In this document: in pieces, positions 4,483-44,342 of the stretch
Numbering within the stretch: the stretch's first letter is position 1
How the letters are laid out: every line of letters starts with the position of its first letter
Assembly: GCA_030147925.1 (NCBI GenBank)
Contig: JASBUK010000011.1
Coordinates: 1 to 64,000 of the forward strand
DNA from: Trueperaceae bacterium
Lineage (GTDB): Bacteria > Deinococcota > Deinococci > Deinococcales > Trueperaceae
DNA length: 64,000 bases
Reading direction: 5' to 3'
The notes under the pieces: generated by a model
Told to the model about the DNA's origin: nothing
The model's database searches: none
What the model saw: the letters and a program-made list of their open reading frames with translations, nothing else
Program-made: the position numbers and the translations under genes

Positions 4483-4809
4483 ATGTCCCCAGCTGCCGCA
4501 GCCAAGCATCTGCCCTTGCGCCGCTGTGTGGCCTGTCGTGACAGCAGGCCTCAGGCCGAACTCATCCGTTTTTATCGCGGGGAGTTAAGTCAGTGGCGGT
4601 TAGATGCCAAGCAAAAAGCGGGTGGTCGCGGCGCTTGGATCTGTAAAGACAAGGTAGCCTGCCACAACGAAAAGGTGCTTAAGCGTTTTTTTCGCTCCCA
4701 GGCACTACGTATCAGCAAAGAAATTGCCGCGTTGCGCCAAGATGAGGAAGTTAATACCCAAACAAGCAAGTCTCAACACAATTCCCGAATTGGAGGGGTG
4801 AATGTCTGA
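4483..4809 (+). CDS. ylxR: YlxR/RnpM family RNA-binding protein
   Basis: A 108-aa member of the YlxR (DUF448) family, a modulator of RNase P activity in Firmicutes. The signature CVACRDSRPQAELIRFYR (about residues 15-32) and the GGRGAWIC segment are diagnostic; the family's usual C-terminal helix is extended here by a polar tail. The start lies 2 bases after nusA and the stop overlaps infB by 8 bases, with the infB ribosome site (GGAGG) inside this gene, so the two are translationally coupled. Confidence 0.9.
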   Translation: MSPAAAAKHLPLRRCVACRDSRPQAELIRFYRGELSQWRLDAKQKAGGRGAWICKDKVACHNEKVLKRFFRSQALRISKEIAALRQDEEVNTQTSKSQHNSRIGGVNV

Positions 4810-6577
4810 TAAAGTCCGAATTTACCAACTCGCCAAAGACCTGAACCTAGAAACCAAAAAAATGCTCGAGCTACTAGACTCAATGGGCGTAGAGTACAAG
4901 TCCCATTCGAGCACATTAGATGCGGAAACCGCCGAGACAGTCAGGCAAATCATTGCCGAAGAGAGTAGCGAAGCCGCTCCGGAAGCTAAAGAGCCGCAAG
5001 TAGAAAAGGCAGAAAAACCAGCCAAACCGGCTAAAGCAGCGCCCAAAAAGACTAAAAAAGCCAAGGAAGCCCCCCTGCGCGCACCGGTAGTCACCGTTAT
5101 GGGCCACGTTGACCACGGCAAAACCAGTCTGCTGGACTATATCCGCAAATCAAGAGTCGCCGAAAAAGAGGCTGGCGGCATCACCCAACATATTGGCCCC
5201 TATCAAGCAGAAACCGCTGGTGGTACTATTACTTTCTTAGACACCCCCGGTCACGAGGCTTTTACCACTATCAGGCAGCGCGGCGCTAACGCTACCGATA
5301 TTGCCGTTATCGTGGTAGCAGCAGACGACAGCATCATGCCGCAAACACGCGAAGCCATCGCCCACGCCAAAGCCGCCGGCGTGCCGATCATTGTGGCCAT
5401 CAACAAAATCGACCTGCCCCAGGCCAACGCGGATAAGGTCATGCAGGACCTGATGCGGGTAGAACTGGTGCCCGAGGCCTTTGGCGGCGATACCATCACC
5501 GTGCCAATCAGCGCCAAGACCGGTCAGGGCATCGATGACCTTTTGGAGATGATTTCGCTGGTGGCCGAAGTTGAGGACCTCCGCGCACCTGCCGACGGTC
5601 CGGCAGAAGGCATCATTATCGAGTCGATTCTTGATAAACGTGCGGGCGTTTTGGCCACGGTGCTCGTGCAAAAAGGCAAACTGCACGTAACCGATTACAT
5701 CGTCTCCGGCGAAGCCTGGGCCAAAATCCGGGCCATGACCGACTCCGCCGGAAAACGCATCAAGGAAGCCGGGCCGTCCGTTCCGGTGCAGATACTTGGC
5801 TTTAGCGAACAACCCTTAGCCGGTGACAGCGTTGCCGCCGTTGCCAGCGAGCAGGCCGCCAAGCAACTGGTAAGCAAACGTCGTGAAGAACGCGAGGAAG
5901 AAGAGCGCGCTAACATCGGCATAAAAGGCGTGACTTTAGCCGATCTCTTTAGCAAAACCAAAACAACCAAGATCAACCTGATACTCAGGGCTGACACGCA
6001 AGGTTCGCTAGAAGCTATCAAAGGTGTACTGGCAAAAGAATCCGCAGCCACCGATGAGGTTGATTTGGAAATAATGCTTGACGCCGTGGGCGCACCAACC
6101 GAAGCCGATTTGCTGTTGGCCGGCACCGCCGACGCCACCGTCATCAGCTTTGGCGTCAATCCGGCAGGTAGCGTTATTAAAGCCGCCGAACGTCAGGGAA
6201 TCACCTTAAAGAGCTATCGCATCATTTACAACCTCATCGAAGACGTGCAAAAAATGATCCGGGGCCAGATTGAACCCGAATACGAAGAACGGGTCATTGG
6301 TCATGCCGAAATTCGCGCCGTCATCAAAGTACCCAGGTCCGGTAATATCGCCGGTTCCTATATAACCGACGGCTTTATTCGCCGCGGAGCCAAAGCGCGT
6401 CTTATTCGCGGAGGCAAAGAGGTCTATAAAGGCTCCATTGCACAGCTCAGACGCTTTAAGGACGATGTGCGGGAAGTACAGACAGGCTTTGAATGCGGTA
6501 TAAATCTGCAAAACTATGACAATGTCCAAGAAGGTGACATTATCGAAGCCTACGAGATGGTCGAGGTGAGCGTTTAA
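4802..6577 (+). CDS. infB: Translation initiation factor IF-2
   Basis: The GTPase that places initiator tRNA on the 30S subunit and drives subunit joining. A compact IF2_N domain (residues 1-52) is followed by a short Lys/Ala/Pro/Glu linker (about 55-92), then the G domain with G1 GHVDHGKT (101-108), G3 DTPGHE (147-152), G4 NKID (201-204) and G5 SAKT, and then the C-terminal beta-barrel domains including the fMet-tRNA-binding C2 domain. At 591 aa it is a short-form IF-2, usual in the Deinococcota. Last gene of the operon. Confidence 0.97.
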   Translation: MSDKVRIYQLAKDLNLETKKMLELLDSMGVEYKSHSSTLDAETAETVRQIIAEESSEAAPEAKEPQVEKAEKPAKPAKAAPKKTKKAKEAPLRAPVVTVMGHVDHGKTSLLDYIRKSRVAEKEAGGITQHIGPYQAETAGGTITFLDTPGHEAFTTIRQRGANATDIAVIVVAADDSIMPQTREAIAHAKAAGVPIIVAINKIDLPQANADKVMQDLMRVELVPEAFGGDTITVPISAKTGQGIDDLLEMISLVAEVEDLRAPADGPAEGIIIESILDKRAGVLATVLVQKGKLHVTDYIVSGEAWAKIRAMTDSAGKRIKEAGPSVPVQILGFSEQPLAGDSVAAVASEQAAKQLVSKRREEREEEERANIGIKGVTLADLFSKTKTTKINLILRADTQGSLEAIKGVLAKESAATDEVDLEIMLDAVGAPTEADLLLAGTADATVISFGVNPAGSVIKAAERQGITLKSYRIIYNLIEDVQKMIRGQIEPEYEERVIGHAEIRAVIKVPRSGNIAGSYITDGFIRRGAKARLIRGGKEVYKGSIAQLRRFKDDVREVQTGFECGINLQNYDNVQEGDIIEAYEMVEVSV

Positions 6578-7215: not shown

Positions 7216-9411
7216 ATGAACCGACGTTCTTTTACCGGCATAGTGGTTTTGGCTGCTGTGCTTGCCTCCATTATGTACCTCTGGCAACCCTGGAACACCT
7301 CCGGCGAGGCCACCCTCAAACTCGGACTCGACTTACAGGGCGGTCTGCGTGTAGTGTTGCAATCCGAAGAGGCCAACCCCTCGCGTGAAGATCTAAGTGC
7401 CGCCCGGCGCGTCATTGAAAACCGCGTCAACGAATTTGGCGTGGCCGAGCCTGTCATTCAAACCAGTGGCAACAATCGCATTGTCGTGGAGTTGCCGGGT
7501 CTTTCTTCCAGCGATCAGGACCGCGCCTTGGATCTAATCGGTCAACAGGCCATTCTTGAGTTTCGGCTGGTCAAACCAACCTCAGTCAACAAAATCGATG
7601 TTGAGATGACCGAGGAAGACCTCGAGCCGACAGCCTTCACCGGGGAAATCCTGCAATTCGCCCAGGCGGACTTTGAACGTATTGGTGGCGCCACCCTCGG
7701 CGGCGCCATCGTCAGATTCGATATAAAACGCCAATTCGCCAACGACTTTGGCGAATTCACCGGGCGCAACATTGGTCGGCGTATGGCCATTGTCCTAGAC
7801 GGCAGGGTCATGAGCGCGCCAACCATTAATGGACGTATCAGCGACTCCGGTGAAATCTCCGGTATGGAAAATCTGGAAGAAGCCAGCGACTTAGCCTTGG
7901 TTCTGCGCTCGGGCAGTCTGCCCATTAACTTGCAACTCGAAGAAATTCGCGCCATCGGCCCGACCTTGGGTCAAGACTCCATCACTGCTGGAACACGCGC
8001 AGCCTTAATCGGTGGTATTGCCGTGATAGCGGCCATTTTGCTTTACTACGGCCCACTTTTTGGTGGCGTGCTGACCATAGGCCTCTTTTTGGTCATGCTG
8101 TTTATCTTTGGGGTACTGGCCGGCCTCGGCGCTGCCCTGACACTACCCGGTTTGGCTGGTCTGGTGCTCACCATTGGTGCAGCAGTTGACGGCAACGTCA
8201 TTTCCTTTGAACGCATCAGAGAAGAGTTGCGCAGCGGCAAGGGTCTGCGCTTGGCCATGCGTGGCGGCTTTGGCAATTCGCTTTCGGCCATTATCGATGC
8301 CAACGTCACCACGCTTTTGGCCGCCGCTGCTCTTTATCAGTACACTTCGGGTCCGGTGCGTGGCTTTGCCATCACCTTGGCCATCGGTATTATCAGCGCA
8401 GTTTTTGTCAACATCATTGTGGTGCCCTTTTTATTAGACGTGCTCACGTTACGCATAAAACGTCCTCTGTTTGTCAGTGGTCTTTATGTTAGTGGACTAA
8501 GGTTTGTGAGCAGAGCTCCAATCGTAGTCGGGATCTCTGGTCTACTGGCACTAGGCGCTATCGCCCTAGTACTGACAAACGGCTTTAATTTATCCACTGA
8601 CTTTACCGGGGGCACCAGTGCGCTTTACCAAGTCAGTGATAACACCAATGTTGACAACGTGCGGCAGGCCATTGACGAACTTAATATCGCCGGAGTTAGT
8701 GGGGGCAGCGCCACCGTGCAGGAAGTTGAAGACGCCACCATTGACGGCAAGCTTATCTCGGTTCGGGTAGGCATTACCGCCGAAAGTGGTGCTGCGGATC
8801 GCTTTCCTATTGAGCTAGCAAACAGCCTAAACGCTGACTTGCTCCAACAGGATTTTGTTGGCCCCTCGGTAGGTGAAGACCTGCGCACCGGCGCTTATAT
8901 GGCGGTGCTCGTCGCCTTGGGCTTGATTCTCGTTTATGTGGGCTGGCGCTTTTGGCCTAACTGGATTATCGCTATTGCTGCTATTATTGCCGTGGTGCAC
9001 GACGTAGCCATTGTCATGGGAGCCTTAAACCTTTTTAGTGCCGAGTTCAGCATCCCAGTTTTAGCGGCCTTACTCTTTGTGGTTGGCTATTCACTCAACG
9101 ACTCAATCATCATTTCCGACCGCATTCGCGAAAATCTGCGCAAGATGCGCAACCAGAGCTACGAAGAAATCGTGGATTTATCCGTCAATCAAACCTTATC
9201 GCGCACGCTGGTTACTTCCGGCACTACGCTGCTGCCGGTGCTGGCTCTGTTTTTCTTTGGCGGCAGCGTTTTAAGAGACTTCAGCACAACTCTTTTAATA
9301 GGTATTGGTGTTGGCACTTACTCAAGCATCTTTATCCTGGCGCCAATGGTGGTCTGGTTTAAAAAGCGTCAGCGTAGCGGCAGATCGGCTGCCCGCCGCC
9401 GCGCCGCTTAA
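7216..9411 (+). CDS. secDF: Fused protein translocase subunit SecDF
   Basis: SecD and SecF in one 731-aa chain; they use the proton-motive force to pull proteins across the membrane after SecYEG/SecA. The SecD half has LGLDLQGGLRVVL (about residues 35-47), IVVELPG, and GAAVDGNVISFERIREEL in its fourth membrane segment. The SecF half has LSTDFTGG and GYSLNDSIIISDRIREN. Twelve membrane segments are expected from the two six-helix halves. The start is an ATG with AGGAG upstream. The fusion is typical of Deinococcus and some Firmicutes. The periplasmic P1 region of SecD is short. Confidence 0.95.
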   Translation: MNRRSFTGIVVLAAVLASIMYLWQPWNTSGEATLKLGLDLQGGLRVVLQSEEANPSREDLSAARRVIENRVNEFGVAEPVIQTSGNNRIVVELPGLSSSDQDRALDLIGQQAILEFRLVKPTSVNKIDVEMTEEDLEPTAFTGEILQFAQADFERIGGATLGGAIVRFDIKRQFANDFGEFTGRNIGRRMAIVLDGRVMSAPTINGRISDSGEISGMENLEEASDLALVLRSGSLPINLQLEEIRAIGPTLGQDSITAGTRAALIGGIAVIAAILLYYGPLFGGVLTIGLFLVMLFIFGVLAGLGAALTLPGLAGLVLTIGAAVDGNVISFERIREELRSGKGLRLAMRGGFGNSLSAIIDANVTTLLAAAALYQYTSGPVRGFAITLAIGIISAVFVNIIVVPFLLDVLTLRIKRPLFVSGLYVSGLRFVSRAPIVVGISGLLALGAIALVLTNGFNLSTDFTGGTSALYQVSDNTNVDNVRQAIDELNIAGVSGGSATVQEVEDATIDGKLISVRVGITAESGAADRFPIELANSLNADLLQQDFVGPSVGEDLRTGAYMAVLVALGLILVYVGWRFWPNWIIAIAAIIAVVHDVAIVMGALNLFSAEFSIPVLAALLFVVGYSLNDSIIISDRIRENLRKMRNQSYEEIVDLSVNQTLSRTLVTSGTTLLPVLALFFFGGSVLRDFSTTLLIGIGVGTYSSIFILAPMVVWFKKRQRSGRSAARRRAA

Positions 9412-9590: not shown

Positions 9591-9976
9591 TTTAGTCCCA
9601 GGCTGAACTGGCGCACAATCTGCCCTTTAAAAGAAACCAGAGCGCGCCAGCGTCCTGGCGTTAGAGCAATGTCAGCAGGTAGAAAAATTTCTCTAGTGGA
9701 ACCGGCATCTTCCGGCTCGAGCCAAATGGAGTCAGAGGCAAGCTCTTTGTTTCTGGGCGAAAACCACTGCACCGCTAACCAGCCGCTTTCCGGAATGGTG
9801 CGCAAGCTAAGCTGCAAACTCAGCTCCGTCTCAAACTTAAGCCCGCTTTCGGCGGCAAACTCCAGTTGCGGTGTCCGCGTCTGGACTTGCGGTATCGGTG
9901 GCAGATAGGTAAAGGTGCAGGCACTGAGCGTTATTAAACTAAGCAGTGCAAGTATCTTAACTATCCGCCGGTTCAT
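9581..9976 (-). CDS. Hypothetical lipoprotein, 131 aa
   Basis: The N-terminus is a lipoprotein signal: basic start (MNRRIVK), hydrophobic core, and lipobox LSAC with the cysteine at residue 20. The mature part looks like a single beta-sandwich domain (alternating hydrophobic strands, WLAVQWFSP, RWRALVSFKGQIVRQF); no family is recognised. Its ATG overlaps the rsmE stop (ATGA), so it is the last gene of a coupled operon with the PlsY fusion, prmA and rsmE. The 3' end runs into an intergenic repeat. Confidence 0.75.
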   Translation of the reverse strand: MNRRIVKILALLSLITLSACTFTYLPPIPQVQTRTPQLEFAAESGLKFETELSLQLSLRTIPESGWLAVQWFSPRNKELASDSIWLEPEDAGSTREIFLPADIALTPGRWRALVSFKGQIVRQFSLGLKKQ

Positions 9977-10686
9977 AACGCCTCGGGTAAAAGAATGGCC
10001 GCAGTGAGCGCTATAGGTGCGGTTTCCGCCCTGAGGATGCGAGCACCCAGATTAACTTCTCTAAACCCCTGCCTGAGCAGCAGGGCAACCTCCTGCTCGG
10101 TTAAATCGCCTTCCGGCCCGGTGACAATGGTGAAATTGGCGTTTTCGGCTGCTTTCTGCGTCTTTATTAGGGTCGATAGTGTATTAGCTGACCCGGGTTG
10201 GGCCACCAGACCTAAATTTTGCGGTTTTAATTCGCTTATAGTGCTTGTCTCTACCAGCGGCACCACGCTGCGCCCAGACTGTTTGGCGGCTTCTTTAGCG
10301 ACCCGCCGCCAGCGCTCGAGCTTGTTTGCCGATATAACTCTCACTTCCGAGCGCTTGCTCACAAAGGGTAAAAAGCACACCGCACCCAGTTCGGTACCAC
10401 GCCGCACCACCTCGGTCAGCTTGTCACCCTTTAGCAAAGCCACTGCCACTGTGATCTGGTAGTTTGGCTCGACGGAGCTCTGCTTGGGGGGCTCGAGCCA
10501 GAGCTTGACCGACATATCGTCAACTTGCTTAACCTCAGCCTGGGCTTCTAGGCCTTCGCCATCAAAGGCACGTACCAAAGCGCCGGGCTTTACCCTTAAG
10601 ACCTCGACAAGATGATGGGCCTCAGTGCCGCTAAGCCGCAACTCGCCGGCAACCAGTTTATGCACAAAAATGCGGTGAACTCTCAT
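9973..10686 (-). CDS. rsmE: 16S rRNA m3U1498 methyltransferase RsmE
   Basis: Methylates N3 of U1498 in helix 44 of 16S rRNA. The 237-aa product begins MRVHRIFVHKL; an N-terminal PUA-like part is followed by a SPOUT knot with TGPEGDLTEQEV and NLGARILRAETAPIAL, the diagnostic SAM-binding loops. I choose the ATG at 10686 because it overlaps the prmA stop as ATGA and begins at the conserved N-terminus; a longer frame starting at 10725 would extend into prmA without family support. Confidence 0.94.
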   Translation of the reverse strand: MRVHRIFVHKLVAGELRLSGTEAHHLVEVLRVKPGALVRAFDGEGLEAQAEVKQVDDMSVKLWLEPPKQSSVEPNYQITVAVALLKGDKLTEVVRRGTELGAVCFLPFVSKRSEVRVISANKLERWRRVAKEAAKQSGRSVVPLVETSTISELKPQNLGLVAQPGSANTLSTLIKTQKAAENANFTIVTGPEGDLTEQEVALLLRQGFREVNLGARILRAETAPIALTAAILLPEAL

Positions 10687-11471
10687 TCTTTCCTTAGGGG
10701 TCGCCGGGCGGAAATTAACAACCATTCCTCAGCTGGCTCTATAGTCGTTATTTCCAGTTGCGGCTCTAGAGCCTCACGTACTATGGCAACACGCTCGCGC
10801 AAAATGCCCGTTATCAACAACACTCCACCAGGTTTTAACACGCGAGTATACTCCCTGGCTAATTCGGCGTGCAGTTCGGCAAAAAGATTAGCAACAATCA
10901 CGTCAACACTGGCGTCAGGCACCGTGTTATCCAAGCTGCCCAGGCGAAATGACGCTTTAGAGTCGTTTAGTTCACGGTTGCTGTTGGCCACCGGCAAGGT
11001 TGCCGGGTCAATATCAAGGCCAAGGGCAGTTTTTGCGCCCAGCAAATCAGCAGCGATTGCCAAGAGACCCGAACCAGAGCCGACATCTAAGACACTTTTA
11101 CCTCTCAAATCCAGTTGCTCGAGCGCTGCTAAGGCCAGACGAGTGGTCGCGTGGTGTCCAGTGCCAAAAGCCATGCCGGGATCAAGCCAGATGACACTCT
11201 GCCCTGCCCTGGCCTCGACACGGCAGTGGGTCGGCGCCACAATAAGGCGCTGCAAAACTACAGGTTTTAGCTCGGCATAATAAGCTGCAAGCCAATCTCT
11301 GTCTCCTTGCTGCTCCCAGCGCCCTGTTAGAGGGAGCTCGAGCGGAGCTTCAAAATAAGCCAGCAAGTCGTCATTATCTTGCACGATGCCCTGACAGCCC
11401 AGTTCCCAGAGCATGGCGGTCTCTACCTCTAAACTTGCAAAATCTCCTTTAAGCCGAAAAACAAAACTCAC
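10683..11471 (-). CDS. prmA: Ribosomal protein L11 methyltransferase PrmA
   Basis: Trimethylates ribosomal protein L11. The 262-aa chain has a small N-terminal substrate-recognition domain and a class I SAM methyltransferase domain, with DPGMAFGTGHHATT (family signature), VLDVGSGSGLLAI (SAM loop) and the NLFAELH motif in place of the usual NILA. The start is a GTG overlapping the stop of the upstream gene (GTGA). PrmA next to RsmE is a common pairing in bacteria. Confidence 0.93.
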   Translation of the reverse strand: MSFVFRLKGDFASLEVETAMLWELGCQGIVQDNDDLLAYFEAPLELPLTGRWEQQGDRDWLAAYYAELKPVVLQRLIVAPTHCRVEARAGQSVIWLDPGMAFGTGHHATTRLALAALEQLDLRGKSVLDVGSGSGLLAIAADLLGAKTALGLDIDPATLPVANSNRELNDSKASFRLGSLDNTVPDASVDVIVANLFAELHAELAREYTRVLKPGGVLLITGILRERVAIVREALEPQLEITTIEPAEEWLLISARRPLRKE

Positions 11472-13165
11472 GCTACTTCCTCATAAAGAGCGAAGCTCTC
11501 GTCCCGGGTCACAATCTCAAAACCAAGCTGCTCACCAGCAGTCAGATAAAAATCAATATTGGCGCTTTTTGTTTGCGGCCCTAAAGATTTGCGGTCAAAA
11601 GCCCTGGTCGCCGTCATAATCATGGTTTCGGCCATGCAAGCAGGCACCATGCCATCGCCAAAGTGAACGTCAATAAGGCTTTGCATCTCACCAGGGGGTC
11701 TAACTACCCCGCCGGGGATGATATGCACACCGGGAACATCTCTCACGGCTTCGTCCACATCCGCAGGCCTGCCAATGTCAAAAATCCAGGCGCCGGGTTT
11801 GACGTGCTCCGGAAAAATCACCGGATTGGGGTCGGAAGTTGCACTAAAGATAAGGTCGGCAGCGGCGCAGACGGCCATGTCGGTACCGACTTCGATTTCG
11901 ATTTCCGGATACTTGCGGCTCAAAGTTTTGGCGCTGCGCAAAAGACGCTCTTCATCCCGGCCAATTAAGATGAGTTTGCCAAGTTCAGAAGCAAGGGCTC
12001 GAGCCACTCCAAAAGCCACCACACCATTAGCACCCACTACCGCGGCACAGGCGTCGCGCAAAGAAGCGCCTTCTTGCGCAAAACGTTTGAGCAAACCCGG
12101 CACTGCAGCTTTGACGGTAGCTGCCGTATAAGCCCCACCGTTAGTAATATGTATGTCAGGCACGGCTTCTTGCACTTCTAAGCCTTTATTGCCAACCGTT
12201 GACCAAAAGGCCCCCAAGCCAAAGGCTTCGGCGCCCAACTCCCGAGCCAAATTAGCTCCTTGAATGGCCATGCGCGTTGCCTCTTGCGGATAACTGCGAA
12301 TCTGATCCGGTAACATAGGCCCGGCAATAAGCATTACTCGCAACTCACGACCATCACTTAGTCTGATGCCGCGAATTTCCCCTTGCTTCTGCGGACGCAT
12401 AAAGAGCAACACGCGGCGCAGCATCGCTTCGGGTAAAATTCCCCATTCGATTAACGGCCTTAACCACTTTTGACTACCAGGCTGCCAGAGGTCGTCAATG
12501 GTGATGGGGTGCACCATAAAAGCAGCATAAACTATCCCGGGGTCTACCCCACGCACGGGTGGTGGATCGCCGAGCTTGGCTTCAGTCTGATCCAAAATGC
12601 GGGCCAGACTGACCTTGTGCCGCCACAGCGACAACCCAAAAATCAGGCTCGTAGCCAGCACTGCCGTCGCACCCTGACCCGTAAACGCCAAAATCAAGGG
12701 TAGCAGCAGTTGACCGCCCAGGGTGGCTAAAGCCGCATAGCCGGTCAGCGCCAGCAGTATCGCGTAAAAAGCTACGGGCAGCAAGACGGCACCGAACGAC
12801 AAACCGCCAAAAGCCCAAAAAGCGGCCAAAATACCCAGCATTACGCCATTGCCCCGTCCACGTGGAATCTCACCGCGGTTTAGTTGTGGCAGCGGATACA
12901 GATGTCCGGCATATACTCCCAGCGCCGCCCAGGGGCTGGCTGCAAACAGTGCTAATGCGACAAAAGCTTTTATTAGATCCAAGGAAAAAGAAGCCAGCGC
13001 TACAGGTGTGCCGACAAAACGCAAGAGATTTTCCAAACCAAGGTTGTGAGCGCTAAAATCCCGGGCCTTTTTTCCGGTTGTGGCCTGAATCAGGCGGCTA
13101 CCCAAGGGCAGAGAACCCAACAGATAAGCAACTAAAATCGTCAGCAAAATAGTTAGTAAATTCAT
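11468..13165 (-). CDS. PlsY-like membrane domain fused to an acyl-ACP-reductase-like domain
   Basis: Residues 1-185 resemble PlsY, the membrane acyl-phosphate:glycerol-3-phosphate acyltransferase: YLLGSLPLG (14-22), NLGLENLLR (41-49) and GRGNGV (103-108) lie where the family has GS(I/L)P, NxGxTNxxR and GGKGVA, but the motifs are diverged. Residues 210-565 resemble long-chain acyl-ACP reductase (AAR) of cyanobacteria: GLGAFWSTVG (316-325), TNGGAYTAAT (341-350), a nucleotide loop VVGANGVVAFG (376-386), DIGRPADVDEA and ACMAETM with Cys510 at the position of the AAR active-site cysteine. A bifunctional acyl-chain enzyme (phospholipid synthesis plus aldehyde formation) is inferred. First gene of the prmA-rsmE operon; a leaderless start is possible. 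Confidence 0.75.
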   Translation of the reverse strand: MNLLTILLTILVAYLLGSLPLGSRLIQATTGKKARDFSAHNLGLENLLRFVGTPVALASFSLDLIKAFVALALFAASPWAALGVYAGHLYPLPQLNRGEIPRGRGNGVMLGILAAFWAFGGLSFGAVLLPVAFYAILLALTGYAALATLGGQLLLPLILAFTGQGATAVLATSLIFGLSLWRHKVSLARILDQTEAKLGDPPPVRGVDPGIVYAAFMVHPITIDDLWQPGSQKWLRPLIEWGILPEAMLRRVLLFMRPQKQGEIRGIRLSDGRELRVMLIAGPMLPDQIRSYPQEATRMAIQGANLARELGAEAFGLGAFWSTVGNKGLEVQEAVPDIHITNGGAYTAATVKAAVPGLLKRFAQEGASLRDACAAVVGANGVVAFGVARALASELGKLILIGRDEERLLRSAKTLSRKYPEIEIEVGTDMAVCAAADLIFSATSDPNPVIFPEHVKPGAWIFDIGRPADVDEAVRDVPGVHIIPGGVVRPPGEMQSLIDVHFGDGMVPACMAETMIMTATRAFDRKSLGPQTKSANIDFYLTAGEQLGFEIVTRDESFALYEEVA

Positions 13166-13255: not shown

Positions 13256-14590
13256 GTGGAAAGTCGTACGCCGCCGCAAAATTTAGAAGCAGAGCAAAGT
13301 GTTTTAGGCAGTATTTTGCTCGACAATGAGGTCTATGCCGCCATAGAGGGCGTACTGACAGCCAATCATTTTTACAAAGAAAGCCATCGCAAAATTTTCC
13401 GGGCTTTCGAGCGGCTCTTTCGCCGCAATGAACCAATGGACTTAGTCACCCTAACCGAGGAACTCAGACAAACCGGCGAATTAGAAGCGGTTGGCAGCGT
13501 TCCTTATCTCATTGGCTTAGCAGACAGCGTGCCCACGGCGGCCTATGCCGAGAACTACGCCAAAATCGTTAACGAAAAGGCCATCCTGCGCGATCTTATC
13601 TCCGCTAGTGGCCAGATCATGCAAACGGCCTTTGACCAGGCCATGCCGCTCGAGCAAGTCTTGGATAAGGCCGAAGCCAACATCTTTGAGCTTTCCAGCA
13701 ACAAACGTAGTCACAGCTTTGCCGGCATGGGCACACTGGTAACCGACACCTTTGCCCATATAAACGAACTCTTTAGCAACCCCGATCCAGTGTCGGGCTT
13801 GCGCACTGGCTTTAAGGAATTAGACCAGCTCACTGCCGGATTACAAGACAGCAGTTTAAATGTCTTGGCAGCTAGGCCCTCGATGGGAAAAACGGCGTTC
13901 GCTCTAACTATCGGCATGAACGCCGCCTTGCGTGAAGGCAAAACCGTGGGTATCTTCTCCTTGGAAATGTCTAACGTGCAACTTGTAACCCGCATGCTCT
14001 GTAGCGAAGCACGTGTCGATATGAGCCGGGTGCGCAACGGCCAGCTCTCAGATCGGGACTTTCAGCGCCTAGCAGATACCGCCGGTAAAATGTCGGACGC
14101 AAAAATATTTATTGATGACAGCGCCGATATGGGTGTAATGGAGTTGCGTTCACGCTCGCGCCGCTTAATGGCTGAACATGATTTGGGCCTCATAGTCATC
14201 GATTACTTGCAACTTATGCACGGCAGTGGCCGAGTCGGTGGCGGCGAAAACCGTCAGCAGGAAATCTCTGCTATCTCCCGGGGCTTAAAAGCACTCGCCC
14301 GCGAGTTGAATATCCCGGTACTGGTGTTAAGCCAGCTTTCACGAGCCGTCGAATCCCGACCCAATAAACGTCCTATGCTCTCCGATCTGCGCGAATCGGG
14401 CGCTATTGAGCAAGACGCAGATTTGGTCATGTTTATCTACCGTGATGAATATTACGATCAGCACTCGGAAAAACAAGGTATCGCCGAAATCATTATCGGC
14501 AAGCAGCGCAACGGACCGGTAGGTACTATCGAGTTGCAGTTCCACAATGCCCACGTGCGCTTTAACGACCTCGCCAAAACTAGCTCCTAA
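13256..14590 (+). CDS. dnaB: Replicative DNA helicase DnaB
   Basis: The hexameric helicase that unwinds DNA at the replication fork. The 444-aa product has the N-terminal DnaB domain starting PPQNLEAEQSVLGSILLD, and a RecA-like domain with Walker A ARPSMGKTAFAL (about 205-216), Walker B LIVIDYLQLM, the DnaB signature LSQLSRAVESRPNKRPMLSD and GAIEQDADLVMF. No intein is present. The start is a GTG 6 bases after a TACAAT box, so the message is probably leaderless. It is divergent from the PlsY fusion. Confidence 0.96.
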   Translation: MESRTPPQNLEAEQSVLGSILLDNEVYAAIEGVLTANHFYKESHRKIFRAFERLFRRNEPMDLVTLTEELRQTGELEAVGSVPYLIGLADSVPTAAYAENYAKIVNEKAILRDLISASGQIMQTAFDQAMPLEQVLDKAEANIFELSSNKRSHSFAGMGTLVTDTFAHINELFSNPDPVSGLRTGFKELDQLTAGLQDSSLNVLAARPSMGKTAFALTIGMNAALREGKTVGIFSLEMSNVQLVTRMLCSEARVDMSRVRNGQLSDRDFQRLADTAGKMSDAKIFIDDSADMGVMELRSRSRRLMAEHDLGLIVIDYLQLMHGSGRVGGGENRQQEISAISRGLKALARELNIPVLVLSQLSRAVESRPNKRPMLSDLRESGAIEQDADLVMFIYRDEYYDQHSEKQGIAEIIIGKQRNGPVGTIELQFHNAHVRFNDLAKTSS

Positions 14591-14600
14591 GCTACGTTTA

Positions 14601-14622
14601 AGCCGGGACTATTGTCCCGGCT
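14601..14622 (+). terminator. Strong hairpin after dnaB
   Basis: AGCCGGGAC and GTCCCGGCT pair perfectly (9 bp, loop TATT) 11 bases after the dnaB stop. No immediate T-run; T-rich bases follow about 25 nt later. Termination of dnaB is likely but not proven. Confidence 0.45.
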
Positions 14623-14663
14623 GCGCCAGATAAATAAGCGGCTGATTTTTGTCTAAGCTTAAG

Positions 14664-14694
14664 GCGCCAGCTTACACTTTTTTCACGCTGGCGC
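14664..14694. promoter_or_regulatory. Inverted repeat overlapping the ftsH promoter
   Basis: GCGCCAGC (14664-14671) and GCTGGCGC (14687-14694) are perfect inverted copies 15 bases apart. They enclose TTACAC (14672-14677), the likely -35 element, and stop 2 bases before the -10 box. The position suits a repressor or activator of ftsH. Confidence 0.45.
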
Positions 14695-14696
14695 AG

Positions 14697-14702
14697 TAGA
14701 CT
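14697..14702 (+). promoter_or_regulatory. -10 box of ftsH (leaderless start)
   Basis: TAGACT ends 5 bases before the ATG at 14708. The spacing to the -35 candidate TTACAC is 19 bases, slightly long. Confidence 0.5.
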
Positions 14703-14707
14703 GGATT

Positions 14708-16624
14708 ATGGGCAAATTCCCCGTGCGAAACCTGCTTATTGGTATCGCCGTTGTAGCGCTGATTTTTTTCGTCATCGCACAAAACAGCGGTCGCAGTCAA
14801 GGTGAGTTCAAAAGTTATAGCGAGTTTAAAAGCCAAGTAGAAGCAGGTGCCATTGTCAGCGTCAGAGTAAAAGATACGGAATTACAAGTTACCCCTCGCC
14901 GAGGAGACCCCTTTGTAACCCGCTTAGCACTCCCGCCAACCAGCGAGGAGCTTGACCGCCTTAGTGAACAAGGGGTCGAAGTGGAAGTCGCGTCAAGACA
15001 GCAAAACTGGAACAATATCCTGTTTGCCCTGCTACCAATTTTGCTTATGGTGGGCTTTTTGTGGTATCTGCTTCGCGGCATGCGTGGTAGCAGCGATGGG
15101 GCGATGTCATTTGGTAAATCCAAGGCCAGGCTTATCAGCGAAGAAAACAGTTCTACGCTATTTGCCGATGTCGCCGGTGTCGAAGAGGCCAAAGACGATC
15201 TTACCGAAGTCGTCGAATTTCTTAAAAATCCCGGTAAATTTCATGCGCTGGGCGCACGCATCCCTCACGGCGTATTGATGGTCGGTCCGCCTGGTTCCGG
15301 CAAAACTCACCTGGCCAAAGCCGTGGCGGGCGAAGCCAAAGTGCCGTTTTTTAGTATTTCGGGTTCGGATTTTGTCGAGATGTTTGTGGGCGTAGGTGCC
15401 GCGCGTGTACGTGACCTTTTTGATCAGGCCAAAAAGAATGCCCCCTGCATTGTCTTTATCGATGAAATTGATGCCGTGGGTCGCCGCCGGGGCGTAAGCA
15501 TCAGTGGTGGCAACGACGAGCGTGAACAGACCTTAAATGCACTGTTAGTAGAAATGGATGGTTTTGAGTCCAAACACGACATTATCATCGTTGCCGCAAC
15601 CAACCGCCCTGATGTACTCGACCCGGCGCTGCTCCGCCCCGGGCGTTTTGACAGACAGGTTGTAGTTGACGCACCGGATGTCAAGGGACGTGAGGCCATC
15701 CTAAAAATCCATTCCCGTGGCAAACCCCTGGCCAGTACGGTGGATTTTAAGACCGTTGCCAGGCGCACACCGGGCTTTGTCGGAGCCGATCTGGAAAATC
15801 TCTTAAATGAAGCTGCTTTGGTAACGGCCAGAGCAAATCGCAAAGAAATCACTATGGAAGACCTAGATGAGGCCGCCGACCGCGTGGTAATGGGCCCTGA
15901 AAGACGCAGCCGGGTAATCAGCGTTAAGGAAAAGAGGATTACCGCCTACCACGAAGCTGGTCACGCCTTGGCTGCTAATCTGCTCCCATATGCGGACCCG
16001 GTGCATAAGATCACCATTGTGCCAAGGGGTCGTGCCGGTGGCTATGTCATGCGTATCGCCGAGGAAGATCGCATTTATGCCAGCCGGAATATGCTTTTAG
16101 ACACCATTGCCGTGGCACTGGCCGGACGCGTGGCCGAAGAGATTATTTTCCAGGACGTGACCACGGGTGCTCAAAATGACTTTCAGCAGGCCACTAACAT
16201 TGCCCGGCGCATGGTAACCAGTTGGGGCATGAGCGAGAACTTGGGCAAGATTGCACTCAGTAGCAGCAGCGAGTCCTATCTGGGCGAGGTCGAAGGAAGC
16301 CGCAGTTACAGTGAAGAAACAGCAAGACTTGTTGATGCCGAAGTAAAAGCCATTATCGACTCTCAATATCAGCGCGTGCTCGAGCTTGTCCAAGAGCGCC
16401 GCGAAGAGCTCGAGCATATCGTAACAGTGCTGCTCGATCGTGAGACACTCCATGCCGAAGAGTTTGCGAAACTGATGCGAGGCGAAGACCTGCCGGCTTT
16501 TGAGAACGAGGAAGTTGTCAGCGAAACAGCCAAAGCCACCAGCGAAAGTGAAAAAGAACCAGTGCGCGAAACTAAGCCCAAAGACCCCTCACTCCCGCCA
16601 GGGATGATGCCCAAACCAGGCTGA
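14708..16624 (+). CDS. ftsH: ATP-dependent zinc metalloprotease FtsH
   Basis: Membrane-anchored AAA+ protease that degrades misfolded and regulatory membrane proteins. Two membrane segments (about 8-24 and 104-121) flank a small extracytoplasmic domain. The AAA domain has Walker A GPPGSGKT (193-200; Ser replaces the usual Thr), Walker [16 protein letters not shown] and the SRH region [17 protein letters not shown]. The protease domain has zinc motif HEAGH (415-419). The 638-aa chain ends in a charged, Pro-rich tail. Leaderless start. Confidence 0.96.
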
Positions 16625-19423: not shown

Positions 19424-20476
19424 ATGGCCTTGTCACGTGAAGCCCGCATCATGATCGGCATCCTTATGTTGGCCGCGGCTGTTTTTGTCTGGAGCAATTT
19501 CTTTCTCCGGCCACCAGCGATTGGTACCGGCGGCGCTGATAGCGGCCAGCTCGCCACCCCATCGCAAGCAGTTCCAGCAGACGGGATTGCGGTTAGTCCG
19601 GAGCTATCCCCTGCTGAGGGCACGCCCGTCATCGCTCGCGACATCGAGATTGCCGAACTGCCGTTTTTGGTAACGGCACCTCCCGAAATCGAGCTTGCGC
19701 CCCAGGCCGACGAACAGCTTAGCCCCGACGACATAAACCGCCCACAGAGCGAACAGCGGGCATCAGTCAACCCCTTCTCGCCCATCATTGTGCAAGAGGC
19801 TGCGGCTACTTCAACCGTAAGCGCTCCGCCCCCAACAACGGAGCCAATTGACTTAGTCGAGGTGCCAATCCAGGGGCCGCCCGGTGTCGAGATTGTCAAC
19901 ACGCCACCAGAGCCGATAGTCGCGCCTACACCACGGGCGCTCACACCTCCAGCGCCACCGGCGCGCAACCTGCCAAGAACTCTGCCCAACGGCGTTTTGT
20001 CGGTCACGCCGGATATATTGCGTACAACCAGAGCCGTCGACAACCAGCCACAACCAGTAAATTTGGCCGAGGTAGCCGCCATACGAGTACCAGGCGAAGC
20101 AACCCCCGATTTTAACGGCCCACTGGTAAACGGCAATCCTGTTCCCTTAAGCGCTCCAGAGGCCTTACCGGAACCTCTGGCCATGAGCCCGGCTGAGCTG
20201 CTTGATACTCCGGCTAACAGCGCAGAACCGCTCGCCGTTGCCACTAACTCCTTGTCACGTTATCTGCGAGATAACAATGTGATATTTACCGGTTCGGTTC
20301 TTGGCCCGGTTGGCGTTGCCGTGTTCCGCTCATCCTTGAGCCAGTCACCACTCGTCGTCACTCTGGGGCAAACCCTGCCCGAAACCGACATCGTGCTTAC
20401 GGACCTGAAAGGACAGCAGGCCGAATTTACCCAAGATAACGATAAACAAACTCTCATTCTCGATCTCAGGCGGTGA
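19424..20476 (+). CDS. Pilus assembly protein, PilW/PilP-like, with Pro-rich middle
   Basis: A 350-aa bitopic protein: a short cytoplasmic start (MALSREARIM), one membrane segment (about 11-29), a very long low-complexity Pro/Ala/Glu-rich region (about 30-265), and a C-terminal globular domain of about 70 residues (GSVLGPVGVAVFR, LVVTLGQTLPETDIVLTDL). That domain resembles the HR/PilP domain which docks onto the secretin. It occupies the place of pilP in proteobacteria and pilW in Thermus; which family it belongs to I cannot decide. It starts 2 bases after pilO and overlaps pilQ (GTGA). Confidence 0.75.
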   Translation: MALSREARIMIGILMLAAAVFVWSNFFLRPPAIGTGGADSGQLATPSQAVPADGIAVSPELSPAEGTPVIARDIEIAELPFLVTAPPEIELAPQADEQLSPDDINRPQSEQRASVNPFSPIIVQEAAATSTVSAPPPTTEPIDLVEVPIQGPPGVEIVNTPPEPIVAPTPRALTPPAPPARNLPRTLPNGVLSVTPDILRTTRAVDNQPQPVNLAEVAAIRVPGEATPDFNGPLVNGNPVPLSAPEALPEPLAMSPAELLDTPANSAEPLAVATNSLSRYLRDNNVIFTGSVLGPVGVAVFRSSLSQSPLVVTLGQTLPETDIVLTDLKGQQAEFTQDNDKQTLILDLRR

Positions 20477-21990
20477 TCATGAAACGACTTTGGCTTTACC
20501 TCACTATAGTTTTGGGCTCGAGCCTGGCGTTTGCCGGCTTCGCCCAACTCGCCCCCTTGCCCAGTGACGCCATCTTTGACCAGGCTGTCGAATTCAAGAC
20601 TGCCGCCGGGGGTGAATCACTCCAGGTTATGGTGGCCGCCCTGGCCAGGTCAATCAATCTCACGGCTATCGTTGACGATGTGCCGGATAAGACCATAACT
20701 TACGACATCGGTGACCCTAAACCTTTTAGACAGGTCTGGAATATCGTTTTGTCTCTCAATGACCTTGACTATTTACTGCTTGAAAACGACGTGGTGGTAG
20801 TCGGCACGCCAGAATCGGTGGCCAAGCTCAGGAAACAGTCTTCTACTCCCGGTGTGCAAACTCCGGCTGGCGAAGCCGCCATGTCAGAAATAGTCCAGCG
20901 TTTTTACAAAGTCAGCAGTGATGTCAATGAAGTGGCCGGTTTTTTGGAACAGGAATTGCCGGAAGTAAGCATCAATATTTTTGAAACGCTTAATATTATC
21001 TCCGTCAGAGGTACTCAAGAACAGCAAGATGAAGTCGCCGCTATCCTAAGCCAGATTGACCGCACCATTGAAGCCGTACCTTTGGAGCAACGTGTCTATA
21101 CCCTGTCAAACGCCAAGGCCGCTGACTTAGCCCAGGTCTTAGAGGCGAGCAACATTCAAAACGTCGCCGGCGTAGCCGATGTCCAGGACGGTCAGGTTGA
21201 TCAGCTACAGTTAAATCAGCAGGAAAAAGAATTCACCGTCACCGCTGATGAACGTACCAACAGCTTGATCGTAACTGCGACAGCCGCAGTGCAAGCGCGT
21301 ATTGCCGAGCTAATACCCCAGTTGGATGTGCCGGTGCCACAGGTCAATGTCCAGGTGAGGATTCAGGAAATTACCACCACTGCAGCACAACAGCTCGGTA
21401 TCAACCTGAATGCGGGCTTGGGTAGCTTTGCTACTACCATCCTCGATGGCGGCCTCAATTTTATCTTTGACGCCCAGAAAGCCATTTCCGGACTAAACAT
21501 CGGCGCGGTACTCGACACTCTGGAAAGACAGGGTCTATCGCGCCGCGTTGACGACAGCAATTTGACGGTCCTCAATAACGGTAAGGCGCAAATTCAATCG
21601 GGTGGAACTATCTTTATCAGCATCGCCGGAGCCGATGAAAATATCGAGAGAACCATTCCTTATGGTGTGCAAATCGACGTACAACCACAAATTTCAGCCG
21701 ATGGCCGTGTCATCTTAGCCGTAGATGCCAAGGTTGAGGATGTGCTATCAGAAACCGCCGATCCGTCTTTTTTAGAACTCTCAACTCGCAAGGTCTCCTC
21801 GACGGTGAGCTTATCGCCCGGCCAAACGATTGTCTTGGGCGGCTTGCTGCAAAACAGCTTTACCGACACTACTAACCGCGTGCCGGTTTTAGGCAGCATT
21901 CCCTTAATCGGCAGTCTTTTTAGCAGCACTACGGTAGAAGAAAGCAATACCGAATTGCTGTTGATTATCAATGCCGTGGTGATCGAATAG
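20473..21990 (+). CDS. pilQ: Type IV pilus secretin PilQ
   Basis: Forms the outer-membrane channel for the pilus and incoming DNA. After a signal peptide (MKRLWLYLTIVLGSSLAFA) come a short STN-like domain (about 35-100), N-domains (IVQRFYKVSSDVNEVAGFL; VYTLSNAKAADLAQVLE), and the secretin core with VPQVNVQVRIQEI and LSPGQTIVLGGLLQ ending in VPVLGSIPLIGSLFSS. At 505 aa it is much shorter than Thermus PilQ (about 750), so fewer periplasmic N-domains are present. The start is GTG 20473 (overlapping the previous stop) or ATG 20479. Confidence 0.93.
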   Translation: MIMKRLWLYLTIVLGSSLAFAGFAQLAPLPSDAIFDQAVEFKTAAGGESLQVMVAALARSINLTAIVDDVPDKTITYDIGDPKPFRQVWNIVLSLNDLDYLLLENDVVVVGTPESVAKLRKQSSTPGVQTPAGEAAMSEIVQRFYKVSSDVNEVAGFLEQELPEVSINIFETLNIISVRGTQEQQDEVAAILSQIDRTIEAVPLEQRVYTLSNAKAADLAQVLEASNIQNVAGVADVQDGQVDQLQLNQQEKEFTVTADERTNSLIVTATAAVQARIAELIPQLDVPVPQVNVQVRIQEITTTAAQQLGINLNAGLGSFATTILDGGLNFIFDAQKAISGLNIGAVLDTLERQGLSRRVDDSNLTVLNNGKAQIQSGGTIFISIAGADENIERTIPYGVQIDVQPQISADGRVILAVDAKVEDVLSETADPSFLELSTRKVSSTVSLSPGQTIVLGGLLQNSFTDTTNRVPVLGSIPLIGSLFSSTTVEESNTELLLIINAVVIE

Positions 21991-31877: not shown

Positions 31878-34870
31878 ACGAACATAATCAAGACAAGCAA
31901 ATTGATATTGCCGATATCCGCAAACGCTTAAGCGAAAGCCAGGGTAAGGCCTATTGGCGCAGTCTTGACGAGTTGGCCGAAACCGAGGAATTTCAGGAGT
32001 TTTTGCACCAGGAATTCCCGCGGCAGGCCGCACCGCTACAAAGCTCGCTCAATCGGCGCGATTTTATGAAGCTCTTGGGGGCTTCGCTGGCACTCGCCGG
32101 TCTTGCTGCTTGTGCCGCCCCTGTTAGGGAAAGCGAGAAGATCGTTCCTTATGTGCGAGCGCCCGAGGAGGTCGTGCCTGGCAAACCGCTCTTTTACGCC
32201 AGCGCTATAACGAGTGGCGGCTATGCCAGCGGCGTGCTGGTCGAAAGCCACATGGGTCGGCCTACCAAGATAGAGGGCAACCCCGATCATCCTGCCAGCC
32301 TTGGCGCTACTGACAGCATGATGCAGGCTTCGGTGCTGACGCTCTATGACCCCGACCGCTCACAAAATGTCAGCCAAGAGGGCAATATGAGCACCTGGGA
32401 AGATGCCACGGCGGCTCTTAGCGCGGCCTTAGCAGGGCTTGAAGATGGCGAAGGCTTACACATCTTAAGCGGAACGATCACATCACCGACGCTAACAAGC
32501 CAGCTAAATCAGGTGCTCGGCAAATACCCTGAAGCCCGCTGGCATCAGTACGACCCCAGCCACAGCGATAACGTTCTAACAGGTGCGGAGTTGGCCTTTG
32601 GGGAGGCCGTACAGACTCGTTATGAGCTAAGCGAAGCCGAAGTCATCCTTTCGCTTGGTGCCGACTTTTTGGGTAGCGGCCCTGGCAAACTTCGTTACAC
32701 GCGTGAATATTCCAGAAGACGCCGTGTGTATGACGAAGAACATGCTGAAATGAACCGCCTTTATCTGGTAGAGAGCACTCCCAGCATCACCGGTTCGGTA
32801 GCCGATCACCGTTTGCCGCTGCGCGACGCCGAAATTGAAGCATTGGCTCGAGCCCTTGCCGAAGAATTCGGCATCGAAGCGCAGGCAAGCGGCAGGCCCG
32901 AAGCGGTATCGGCTGAGTGGTTTGAGGCGCTGCTTGAAGATTTGCAAGAAGCACGCGGCAAGAGCCTAGTTATTGCCGGCGCCGAGCAATCCCCCGCCGT
33001 TCACGTGCTGGCCCACGCTATTAACGAGGCTCTGGGCAATGTCGGCCAGACTGTTATCTACAGCGAACCGGTTGCAGCCAACCCTGTTAACCAATTGGCC
33101 TCGCTGACCACGCTGGTAAACGACATGAACGCTGACAAGGTCAACACCCTAGTCATGATTGGCGGCAACCCGGTCTACAACGCTCCGGCTGATTTAAACT
33201 TTGCCGCAGCCTTAAACAAGGTGCCGCTGAGCGTGCATTTAAGCATGTATCAGGACGAAACCTCGGCAGTTAGCACCTGGCATATCCCGCAAACGCACGA
33301 GTTAGAAACCTGGAGTGATGCTCGAGCCTTTGACGGTACCGCTACCATCATGCAGCCGCTGATTGCTCCCTTTTATGGTGGCAAATCGGCCCATGAGCTG
33401 TTAGCAGCCGTTCTGGGTGAAACCGAGACCAACTCCTATGACGTGATTCGCGCTTTTTGGCGCGAGCAGGCCGAAGGTGATTTTGATGCCTTCTGGCGCA
33501 ACACCGTCTATCGCGGCGTGGTCGAAGGCACCGAGCTAAAAACCAAGGAAGTATCACTCACAGCCGAGATTCCCGCCCCCAGTGCCACAGCAAACGGCGA
33601 AGCCCTGGAAGTCGTTTTCCGACCTGATCCCAGCATCGGCAGTGGAGAATACGCCAACAACGGCTGGCTGCAAGAGTTGCCCAAACCCTTTACCAAACTC
33701 ACCTGGGACAATGCCGCTTTAGTTGGCCCGGCTACTGCCGAACGCCTTAACCTACGCCAGGACGACGTGGTTGAACTTAGTTTAGACGGGCGTTCGGTTG
33801 AGGCCCCGGTATTTATCCTGCCCGGACAGGCCGATAACGTAGTCACTTTGCATTTAGGTTATGGCCGCAGCAATGCTGGCAATGTCGGCACTGGTGCTGG
33901 TTTTAACGCCTATGCTCTGCGCAATTCTGAAAATCCCTGGTCGGCTACGGAACTTAGTTTAAGTAAGACTGGTGAACGCTACAAACTTAGCAGCACACAG
34001 ATTCACTTCAGCATGGATGGCCGCAATCTGGTGCGCAGCGGTACGCTGGCAGAATACGAGGAAAATCCCGAATTCGTTGAAGAGATGGAACACATTGTCG
34101 AATCGGACCTCTATACCGATTGGGAATACAACAGCTATGCCTGGGGCATGGTTATCGATCAGACGGTCTGCACCGGCTGCAATGCCTGTGTCACTGCCTG
34201 CCAAGCCGAAAACAATATTCCTATCGTAGGTAAAGATGAGGTCGCCATCGGACGGGAGATGCATTGGATCAGGGTTGACAGCTACTACCGGGGAGATTTG
34301 GACAACCCCGAGCTTTTGCATCAACCGCTTCCCTGTATGCAGTGCGAAAAGGCTCCCTGTGAGCCCGTTTGCCCGGTTGGCGCAACCATGCACGATACCG
34401 AAGGCCTCAATGTCATGGTCTACAACCGCTGCGTAGGCACACGCTACTGCTCTAACAACTGCCCCTATAAGGTGCGTCGCTTTAATTATCTGCAGTACGC
34501 CGAGCTGGAAGAAAATGCCTTTGCCATGCAGAAGAACCCCGATGTGACCGTGCGCAGCCGTGGCGTGATGGAAAAGTGCACCTATTGCACCCAGCGCATC
34601 AACACCGCTCGCATCCAAGCAGAGCTCGAGCACCGCAGCATTCAAGACGGCGAGGTCGTCACCGCCTGTCAGGCCGCCTGCCCGGCGGAAGCCATCGTCT
34701 TTGGTGATATCAACGACCCGGGAAGCAAGGTCACTGCGTATAAGGCTTCACCACTTAACTACGGTCTCTTAACCGAGCTGAATACCTTCCCACGCACCAC
34801 CTACTTAGCCAAACTGAGAAACCCGAATCCGGCGCTGCTTGCCGCTGGCGAAGAGGGAGGGCGGGCATGA
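31874..34870 (+). CDS. actB: Alternative complex III molybdopterin-like/iron-sulfur subunit ActB
   Basis: 998 aa fusing a molybdopterin-oxidoreductase-like domain (no cofactor in known ACIII) to a four-cluster ferredoxin domain. Twin-arginine signal RRDFMKLLGA (61-70) ends in lipobox LAAC with Cys80, so the protein should be Tat-exported and lipidated. Cysteine clusters: CTGCNACVTAC from residue 766, CMQCEKAPCEPVC, CVGTRYCSNNC and CTYCT...CQAAC, enough for three 4Fe-4S and one 3Fe-4S or 4Fe-4S. ATG 31874 overlaps the actA stop; an earlier GTG (31865) is less likely. Confidence 0.95.
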   Translation: MNEHNQDKQIDIADIRKRLSESQGKAYWRSLDELAETEEFQEFLHQEFPRQAAPLQSSLNRRDFMKLLGASLALAGLAACAAPVRESEKIVPYVRAPEEVVPGKPLFYASAITSGGYASGVLVESHMGRPTKIEGNPDHPASLGATDSMMQASVLTLYDPDRSQNVSQEGNMSTWEDATAALSAALAGLEDGEGLHILSGTITSPTLTSQLNQVLGKYPEARWHQYDPSHSDNVLTGAELAFGEAVQTRYELSEAEVILSLGADFLGSGPGKLRYTREYSRRRRVYDEEHAEMNRLYLVESTPSITGSVADHRLPLRDAEIEALARALAEEFGIEAQASGRPEAVSAEWFEALLEDLQEARGKSLVIAGAEQSPAVHVLAHAINEALGNVGQTVIYSEPVAANPVNQLASLTTLVNDMNADKVNTLVMIGGNPVYNAPADLNFAAALNKVPLSVHLSMYQDETSAVSTWHIPQTHELETWSDARAFDGTATIMQPLIAPFYGGKSAHELLAAVLGETETNSYDVIRAFWREQAEGDFDAFWRNTVYRGVVEGTELKTKEVSLTAEIPAPSATANGEALEVVFRPDPSIGSGEYANNGWLQELPKPFTKLTWDNAALVGPATAERLNLRQDDVVELSLDGRSVEAPVFILPGQADNVVTLHLGYGRSNAGNVGTGAGFNAYALRNSENPWSATELSLSKTGERYKLSSTQIHFSMDGRNLVRSGTLAEYEENPEFVEEMEHIVESDLYTDWEYNSYAWGMVIDQTVCTGCNACVTACQAENNIPIVGKDEVAIGREMHWIRVDSYYRGDLDNPELLHQPLPCMQCEKAPCEPVCPVGATMHDTEGLNVMVYNRCVGTRYCSNNCPYKVRRFNYLQYAELEENAFAMQKNPDVTVRSRGVMEKCTYCTQRINTARIQAELEHRSIQDGEVVTACQAACPAEAIVFGDINDPGSKVTAYKASPLNYGLLTELNTFPRTTYLAKLRNPNPALLAAGEEGGRA

Positions 34871-36279
34871 CCGTTAAACCAAGAGATGCCCGAAAAGTGA
34901 TCGAAACAGATCGCGTCATCGCCCCCGGACAAAGTTATGGCAGCGTTGACGATGCCGTAAACTCGCCGGTACTCCTCCCTTTGGGCAGAACAAAGCTGTG
35001 GTGGTTTATCGGTTTTGGGATTGCCTTTTCCCTGTTGATGCTTTATCTTTACACGGTCATTTATCTGATCGTCACCGGCATCGGTATTTTCGGCAACAAC
35101 ATTCCAGTTGCTTGGGCCTTCCCTATCATCAACTTCGTCTGGTGGATCGGTATCGGCCACGCAGGTACGCTGATTTCCGCCATCTTGCTGCTCTTTAGGC
35201 AAGACTGGCGTACCTCGATCAACCGCTTTGCCGAGGCCATGACGCTCTTTGCCGTGGCGGTGGCCGGTCTGTATCCGATTCTGCACTTGGGCAGACCCTG
35301 GGTGTTTTACTGGCTTTTCCCCTATCCCAACACCATGGGTCTCTGGCCCCAGTTCCGCAGCCCGCTTGACTGGGACGTCTGGGCCATCTCGACTTATGCC
35401 AGCGTTTCAATGTTTTTCTGGTTCATTGGCTTAATTCCCGACTTGGCCACCTTGCGTGACCGCTCTGAAAACCGCTTTGCCAAACTAATGTACGGCATGA
35501 TGGCGCTTGGCTGGCGCGGCTCTGCCAAGCACTGGCAGCGCTATCAGCGAGCTTATCTGCTCTTAGCCGCCTTAGCCACCCCGCTGGTGCTCTCGGTACA
35601 CAGCACCATCGCCATGGACTTCGCCGTGGCGCAATTGCCCGGCTGGAACAACACCGTGTCGCCACCTTTCTTTGTGGCGGGTGCGGTCTTTGCCGGTTTT
35701 GCCATGGTGCTGCTCTTGGCCATTCCGCTGCGTAAGGTCTTTGGGCTTGAAGGCCTGATCACCAAGAAGCACCTGGACAACGCCTCAAAGGTCATGCTGG
35801 CCACCGGCTTGATCGTGCTTTACGGCTACGTCATCGAAATCTTCACCGCCTGGTACAGCGGCGTCGAATTTGAGCGCTTTATGGCCTTCAATCGCATGTT
35901 TGGCAACTACGGCTGGTCGTTCTGGGCGCTGATCTTCTTTAACAGCGTGGCTATTCAACCGCTGTGGTCAAAACGGGTCAGGAACAGTCCTATAGCGCTA
36001 TTTATAATTGCCATCTCTGTCTCAATCGGTATGTGGCTCGAGCGCTTCGTCATCATCGTGGTAAGCCTTACTCGCGACTTTTTGCCCTCATCCTGGGGTG
36101 ACTACTCCGGTACTCTCTGGGACTGGTCACTTTACATAGGCTCTTTTGGCCTTTTCTTAACGCTCTTTTTCCTGTTCATTCGCTTCCTGCCGTCCATTGC
36201 GGTTGCCGAGATCAAGGAACTCGTACACCACACTAATCATTCAGAATCACATGAAGCGCCTCCCACGGAGGTAAGTTAA
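34867..36279 (+). CDS. actC: Alternative complex III quinol-binding membrane subunit ActC (NrfD-like)
   Basis: 470 aa, NrfD/PsrC family, with about ten membrane segments (for example [20 protein letters not shown] near 43-62 and [18 protein letters not shown] near 93-110). It binds menaquinol and passes electrons to the ActB clusters. The cytoplasmic ends are charged; the His/Glu-rich C-terminus ([12 protein letters not shown]) is notable. The start overlaps actB by ATGA. Confidence 0.94.

Positions 36280-42374: not shown

Positions 42375-44342
<1,968 letters not shown>

Follow-up and report, generated by a model that had tools for sequence, protein, structure and literature searches.

A conserved Deinococcota protein joining a PlsY-fold membrane domain to a putative fatty acyl reductase, with a possible role in alkylamine lipid synthesis

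Glutamyl-tRNA reductase (HemA) is a Cys-thioester reductase that feeds a PLP enzyme, and the formation of a fatty amine via transamination requires a fatty aldehyde. PigE and TamH follow this order of events: an acyl thioester is converted to the aldehyde, from which a transaminase then makes the amine (PMC8341465, PMC9594044). The acyl-enzyme thioester is formed on Cys296 of PigE or Cys294 of cyanobacterial AAR and is subsequently reduced; in vitro, reduction was not observed with purified PigE and was observed with a lysate that contained it (PMC8341465). In the structure of the acyltransferase PlsY, motifs 1 and 3 are mostly placed around G3P, and motif 2 mostly around acyl-phosphate (PMC5700162). 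The reductase domain is N-terminal in PigE and C-terminal in TamH, and these enzymes of prodigiosin and tambjamine secondary metabolism are fused to a class III transaminase, whereas the protein described here carries a PlsY-like membrane domain and occurs phylum-wide.

Thermus and Deinococcus contain an alkylamine phosphoglycolipid that has been known for decades. Its description comes from Thermus thermophilus, and Deinococcus radiodurans has a similar lipid (PMC3398001); it has also been reported in Thermus and Meiothermus, and TLC pointed to it in Oceanithermus, Vulcanithermus and Rhabdothermus (PMC3111992). For Truepera, which represents the family studied here, polar lipids were reported with no comparison with the alkylamine lipid (PMC3072082). 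The enzymes that provide the third chain and the head group of the lipid were treated as unknown in 2022 (PMC9636437).

The gene under study lies in a 64-kb stretch of Trueperaceae DNA (the window, by which the whole stretch is meant). It runs from an ATG at 13165 to a stop at 11468, 565 codons with no internal stop (Table 1). All 61 relatives in a first search matched the protein, 58 of them with a long match. Strong matches of 43-71% identity were present in 85 of 86 Deinococcota genomes that were at least 90% complete and lay outside the genus Deinococcus; two of the 85 carry the fusion split or cut by contig ends. The lone exception, a Trueperaceae MAG (G002), has a remnant between dnaB and prmA (L121:5585-6796), which comprises only the last residues of the fusion and has a Tyr replacing the catalytic Cys. 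This copy is a natural pseudogene. An apparent transposase fragment was also seen by eye at this syntenic site. The fusion is therefore not a frame artefact, and the frame error at the junction that the earlier note had raised as an objection is contradicted by full-length homologues in nearly every relative and across the phylum. A scan of named genomes, again outside the genus Deinococcus, yielded 69 loci, nearly all labelled Trueperaceae, Thermus, Meiothermus, Calidithermus, Thermaceae or Deinococcales; the remaining labels were one 'bacterium' of the same order and one Armatimonadetes MAG (L115). The control genome of Deinobacterium chartae matches TIGR04058, which suggests that the fusion is present there. 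A plasmid search found no homologues of the fusion on plasmids.

Table 1. Features of the fusion gene, its neighbours and the companion protein C3. Plain coordinates refer to the window.
Feature	Position	Strand	Basis
Fusion gene, 565 aa	11468..13165	(-)	Intact ORF, conserved across Deinococcota
PlsY-like membrane domain, residues 11-189	12599..13135	(-)	PF02660 8e-23 (over cut-off); Foldseek to 5xj7; table of motif residues
Putative acyl reductase domain, about residues 211-549	11519..12535	(-)	NCBIfam PigE/AAR partial matches; Foldseek to AAR 6jzu/6jzz
Nucleotide-binding motif GANGVV, residues 378-383	12017..12034	(-)	Aligns with PigE and AAR; Gly378 and Gly381 without exception in 73/73
Codon of Cys510, predicted to form the acyl thioester	11636..11638	(-)	Invariant in 73/73, aligned with PigE Cys296 / AAR Cys294
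prmA (context only)	10683..11471	(-)	PF06325 1e-58; 4-base overlap with 3' end of fusion gene
rsmE (context only)	9973..10725	(-)	PF04452 4e-40; overlaps prmA, next in operon
C3 in the genome of the window	G000:C50:1636-2541 (L185:1636-2541)		
C3, Armatimonadota example	L177:5005-5916		

The best NCBIfam profile for the C-terminal half was PigE (3e-24, a partial match over residues 280-534). This profile matched all 34 fusion members examined, to 6e-32, and was stronger still for the stand-alone reductases described below (1e-55 to 4e-65). In a phmmer search against PDB the best five matches were PigE, three AAR sequences and PlsY. An AlphaFold model based on 34 homologues reached a pLDDT of 89.7 and a pTM of 0.87, and its C-terminal half was matched by Foldseek to AAR with an E of 1e-18 and a TM of 0.76-0.78 over the target, as well as to the carmabin pathway domain 'TAD', which has a reactive Cys. 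Cys510 is situated within ACMAET and aligns with the cysteine that is catalytic in PigE and AAR. Together with Glu513, Gly378, Gly381, Asp463, Gly485 and Gly486 it is invariant in all 73 proteins compared (34 Deinococcota fusions, 6 Armatimonadota fusions and 33 stand-alone proteins). The AAR-like layout and the Cys that had been noticed from the letters alone are thus borne out by profile, alignment and fold, and the membership of this domain in the PigE/AAR reductase superfamily is secure. Within this superfamily it shares Cys position and nucleotide motif with the PigE and TamH domains, and fold and catalytic Cys with AAR, and is an equivalog of neither family: the window protein scored 85.3 bits against 850 for PigE (NF053554), of which it lacks the class III transaminase domain, and 43.1 bits against a curated cut-off of 449.7 for AAR (TIGR04058). 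As judged by homology, the domain is likely to be an acyl reductase that forms fatty aldehydes.

The N-terminal half of the model has the PlsY fold, with a TM of 0.79 over the target, so that the predicted structure agrees with both folds. Its score with the PlsY equivalog TIGR00023 (54-57 bits) lies below the cut-off of 137.2 bits, which the separate PlsY of the same genome, on contig C15, exceeds with 167 bits. A third PlsY-like gene in this genome (G000:C145:5292-5846) scores 97 bits, also below the PlsY cut-off. With residues numbered as in Aquifex PlsY (PMC5700162), S35, N37, R45, K104, S142, H177, N180, R183 and E189 were found in 14/14 canonical Deinococcota PlsY proteins, and T41 in all but one of them (13/14). 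The 29 Deinococcota fusions compared have mostly Ala or Pro for S35, His or Tyr for G36, Glu for T41 (28/29), Arg for G102 (29/29) and for K104 (27/29), variable residues for H177 and mostly Asn, Ala or Ser for N180. Invariant in these fusions are D59, K62, G91, H92, P95, G105 and E189, and G103 and R183 are kept as well. What most Deinococcota fusions have in common with PlsY (5xj5-9) is thus the fold and H92, G103, G105, D59, K62, R183 and E189; they differ from it by the replacement of S35, T41 and H177, by G102R, by the added reductase and by the separate PlsY encoded in the same genomes. In the window protein the G3P-site positions S35, T41, K104, H177 and N180 are A39, E45, R104, H183 and S186, of which the His alone is kept. 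From this pattern, the Deinococcota fusions appear to have lost the site for the G3P acceptor and to have retained part of the acyl-phosphate side. The diverged PlsY domain with changed motifs that the earlier note had described is therefore confirmed by PF02660, motif alignment and Foldseek. Of the coupled acyl transfer and aldehyde formation that it had envisaged, the aldehyde step has good support from homology, whereas transfer to G3P is unlikely in Deinococcota because the acceptor residues are lost.

Different forms of the protein were found in Armatimonadota. The reductase is present in 266 of 291 genomes (completeness not given), in six as a full fusion and in about 260, or about 90%, alone, as frames near 370 aa that align with about residues 220-557 of the query. 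The six fusions keep S35, T/S41, R45, K104, S142, H177, N180, R183 and E189, and no PlsY other than the fused domain was found in these genomes; its TIGR00023 scores of 134.8-147.4 bits lie around the cut-off of 137.2. From these residues and scores they look bifunctional. As in the Deinococcota fusions, G102R occurs in all six of them; G36H is shared by five. A maximum-likelihood tree built from the reductase domain separated all 40 fusions from 33 stand-alone proteins with support 100/100, and, if the root lies between these two forms, the Armatimonadota fusions are a grade below the Deinococcota fusions (99/96, 100/99). The fusions have a single origin, and the simplest history is that the two domains were joined once and the G3P site was later lost in Deinococcota, where a separate PlsY is present.

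A 303-aa protein, C3, is encoded immediately upstream on the same strand in 20 of the 33 stand-alone reductase loci fetched from Armatimonadota. It was found in 273 of 291 genomes of that phylum and in 40 of 41 Deinococcota (mostly 39-53% identity), where it is unlinked to the fusion and often lies, by eye, upstream of an apparent efp-accB-accC cluster. No match to C3 was obtained among Pfam, NCBIfam and PDB sequences. Its AF2 model (pLDDT 92) gave Foldseek TM values up to about 0.4, with sugar-binding proteins and malic enzymes, none of them close enough to suggest a function. C3 and the reductase were jointly absent from 12 Armatimonadota genomes against 1.55 expected (Fisher p 1e-10; gyrA controls, 4 against 1.6 and 3 against 1.2 expected), a statistic that is weaker than it appears, since the two are frequently neighbours and a single assembly gap can remove both. 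The stronger point for a tie between them is their adjacency in one phylum together with their conservation in both.

The activity and substrate that we infer are the following. Cys510 in the C-terminal domain would accept a fatty acyl group delivered by acyl-ACP (or acyl-phosphate), and a nicotinamide cofactor would reduce it there to a long-chain aldehyde. The PlsY-fold domain of the Deinococcota proteins would not acylate G3P; it would anchor the enzyme and probably still bind acyl-phosphate or the acyl chain. A separate PLP enzyme would most likely aminate the aldehyde, giving a long-chain alkylamine, and as its destination we infer the major phosphoglycolipid of Deinococcota, in which the alkylamine is amide-bound to D-glycerate. 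That the protein is a membrane-tethered acyl reductase supplying the aldehyde for this alkylamine has, in our judgement, an even chance of being correct. The proposal, made from homology and phyletic pattern, is reasonable, since transamination needs an aldehyde and PigE and TamH make aldehydes for a transaminase.

The following observations count against the link with the alkylamine. The first is that no lipid or aminotransferase gene was recognised among the neighbours of the fusion or the reductase in any lineage examined. In Deinococcota these neighbours resemble housekeeping genes of translation or menaquinone type and vary between families; read by eye from translations, the gene stands behind infC-rpmI-rplT in Thermus and elsewhere in other families. 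A lipid gene cluster around the fusion was therefore rejected, and genomic context is uninformative on its function. The coupling to prmA and rsmE that had been pointed out earlier is real in the window, where the genes overlap, but as a general feature it is confined to the Truepera family. The window also contains a single-gene SecDF fusion (7216-9411), genes for IF-2 (4802-6577) and a secretin (20473-21990), NrfD/ActD genes of the alternative-complex-III type (about 34867-36839) and gyrB (42378-44312, (-)). The second observation is that no dedicated transaminase partner could be singled out: five class III aminotransferase genes or domains are present in the genome of the window (GabT-like, HemL, a HemL-like paralogue, one unclassified, and one within a 3116-aa PKS/NRPS frame), none of them tied to the fusion. 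The domain within the PKS/NRPS-type frame is itself HemL-like (L209; G000:C31 near 13796-14866). The third is the presence of the reductase in Armatimonadota, for which no alkylamine lipid was found in the literature searched.

The last point bears on the main alternative, that the protein is a membrane-bound acyl reductase whose aldehyde enters some other lipid (a fatty alcohol, an ether or a modified chain) common to both phyla. Since the reductase is near-universal in Armatimonadota, whose lipids are poorly known, such a shared lipid is possible. The stand-alone form often lies directly behind C3, C3 is conserved in Deinococcota as well, and a function common to both phyla would be the simplest reading of this. 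However, a small literature search revealed no lipid common to the two phyla, and the nearest characterised relatives supply transaminases; we regard this alternative as a real but lesser possibility. It is improbable that the protein is a bifunctional enzyme that partitions acyl groups, its PlsY half acylating G3P or another acceptor while the reductase draws on the same acyl-phosphate pool. The six Armatimonadota fusions, with their retained G3P-site residues and scores near the PlsY cut-off, would fit such an enzyme, but most of these residues are replaced in Deinococcota, which have a separate PlsY that exceeds the cut-off, the genome of the window included. Still less probable is a Rossmann protein that resembles shikimate dehydrogenase or glutamyl-tRNA reductase and acts on a non-acyl substrate. 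Pfam Shikimate_DH (1e-9) and hemA (2e-8) do match the C-terminal half, but these matches are limited to the generic nucleotide-binding core and rank below PigE and AAR (TIGR04058, 3e-11, a partial match), which extend over almost all of the domain, the Cys region included. HemA is thus a distant relative, and the identity as shikimate dehydrogenase, which the earlier note had set against its own reading, was rejected: PigE is closest, followed by cyanobacterial AAR, and no aroE model was among the 25 families listed for the window protein. Finally, no structure matches the C-terminal half better than AAR, from which the protein differs by its membrane fusion, but an enzyme of the cyanobacterial alkane pathway, which the earlier note had mentioned, is hardly credible with a score so far below the AAR cut-off and with ADO found in none of 61 Deinococcota genomes (Synechococcus elongatus served as positive control), which makes alkanes unlikely.

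The supply of aldehyde for the alkylamine remains our preferred reading. A more specific and rather speculative version of it would make the fusion the entry enzyme of alkylamine-phospholipid synthesis, derived from a bifunctional PlsY-reductase of the Armatimonadota type and working with C3, in which PlsX would make the acyl-phosphate and the modified PlsY site would pass it directly to Cys510. If true, the protein would be an acyl-phosphate-fed, membrane-embedded fatty-aldehyde synthase. By score alone the fusion would pass for a weak PlsY. The succession of stand-alone reductase, fusion with a working-looking PlsY and fusion with a degenerate PlsY illustrates how an acyltransferase can become the membrane module of another enzyme, and the fusion gene is a specific, testable and phylum-wide candidate for the enzyme that starts the alkylamine chain of the lipid.
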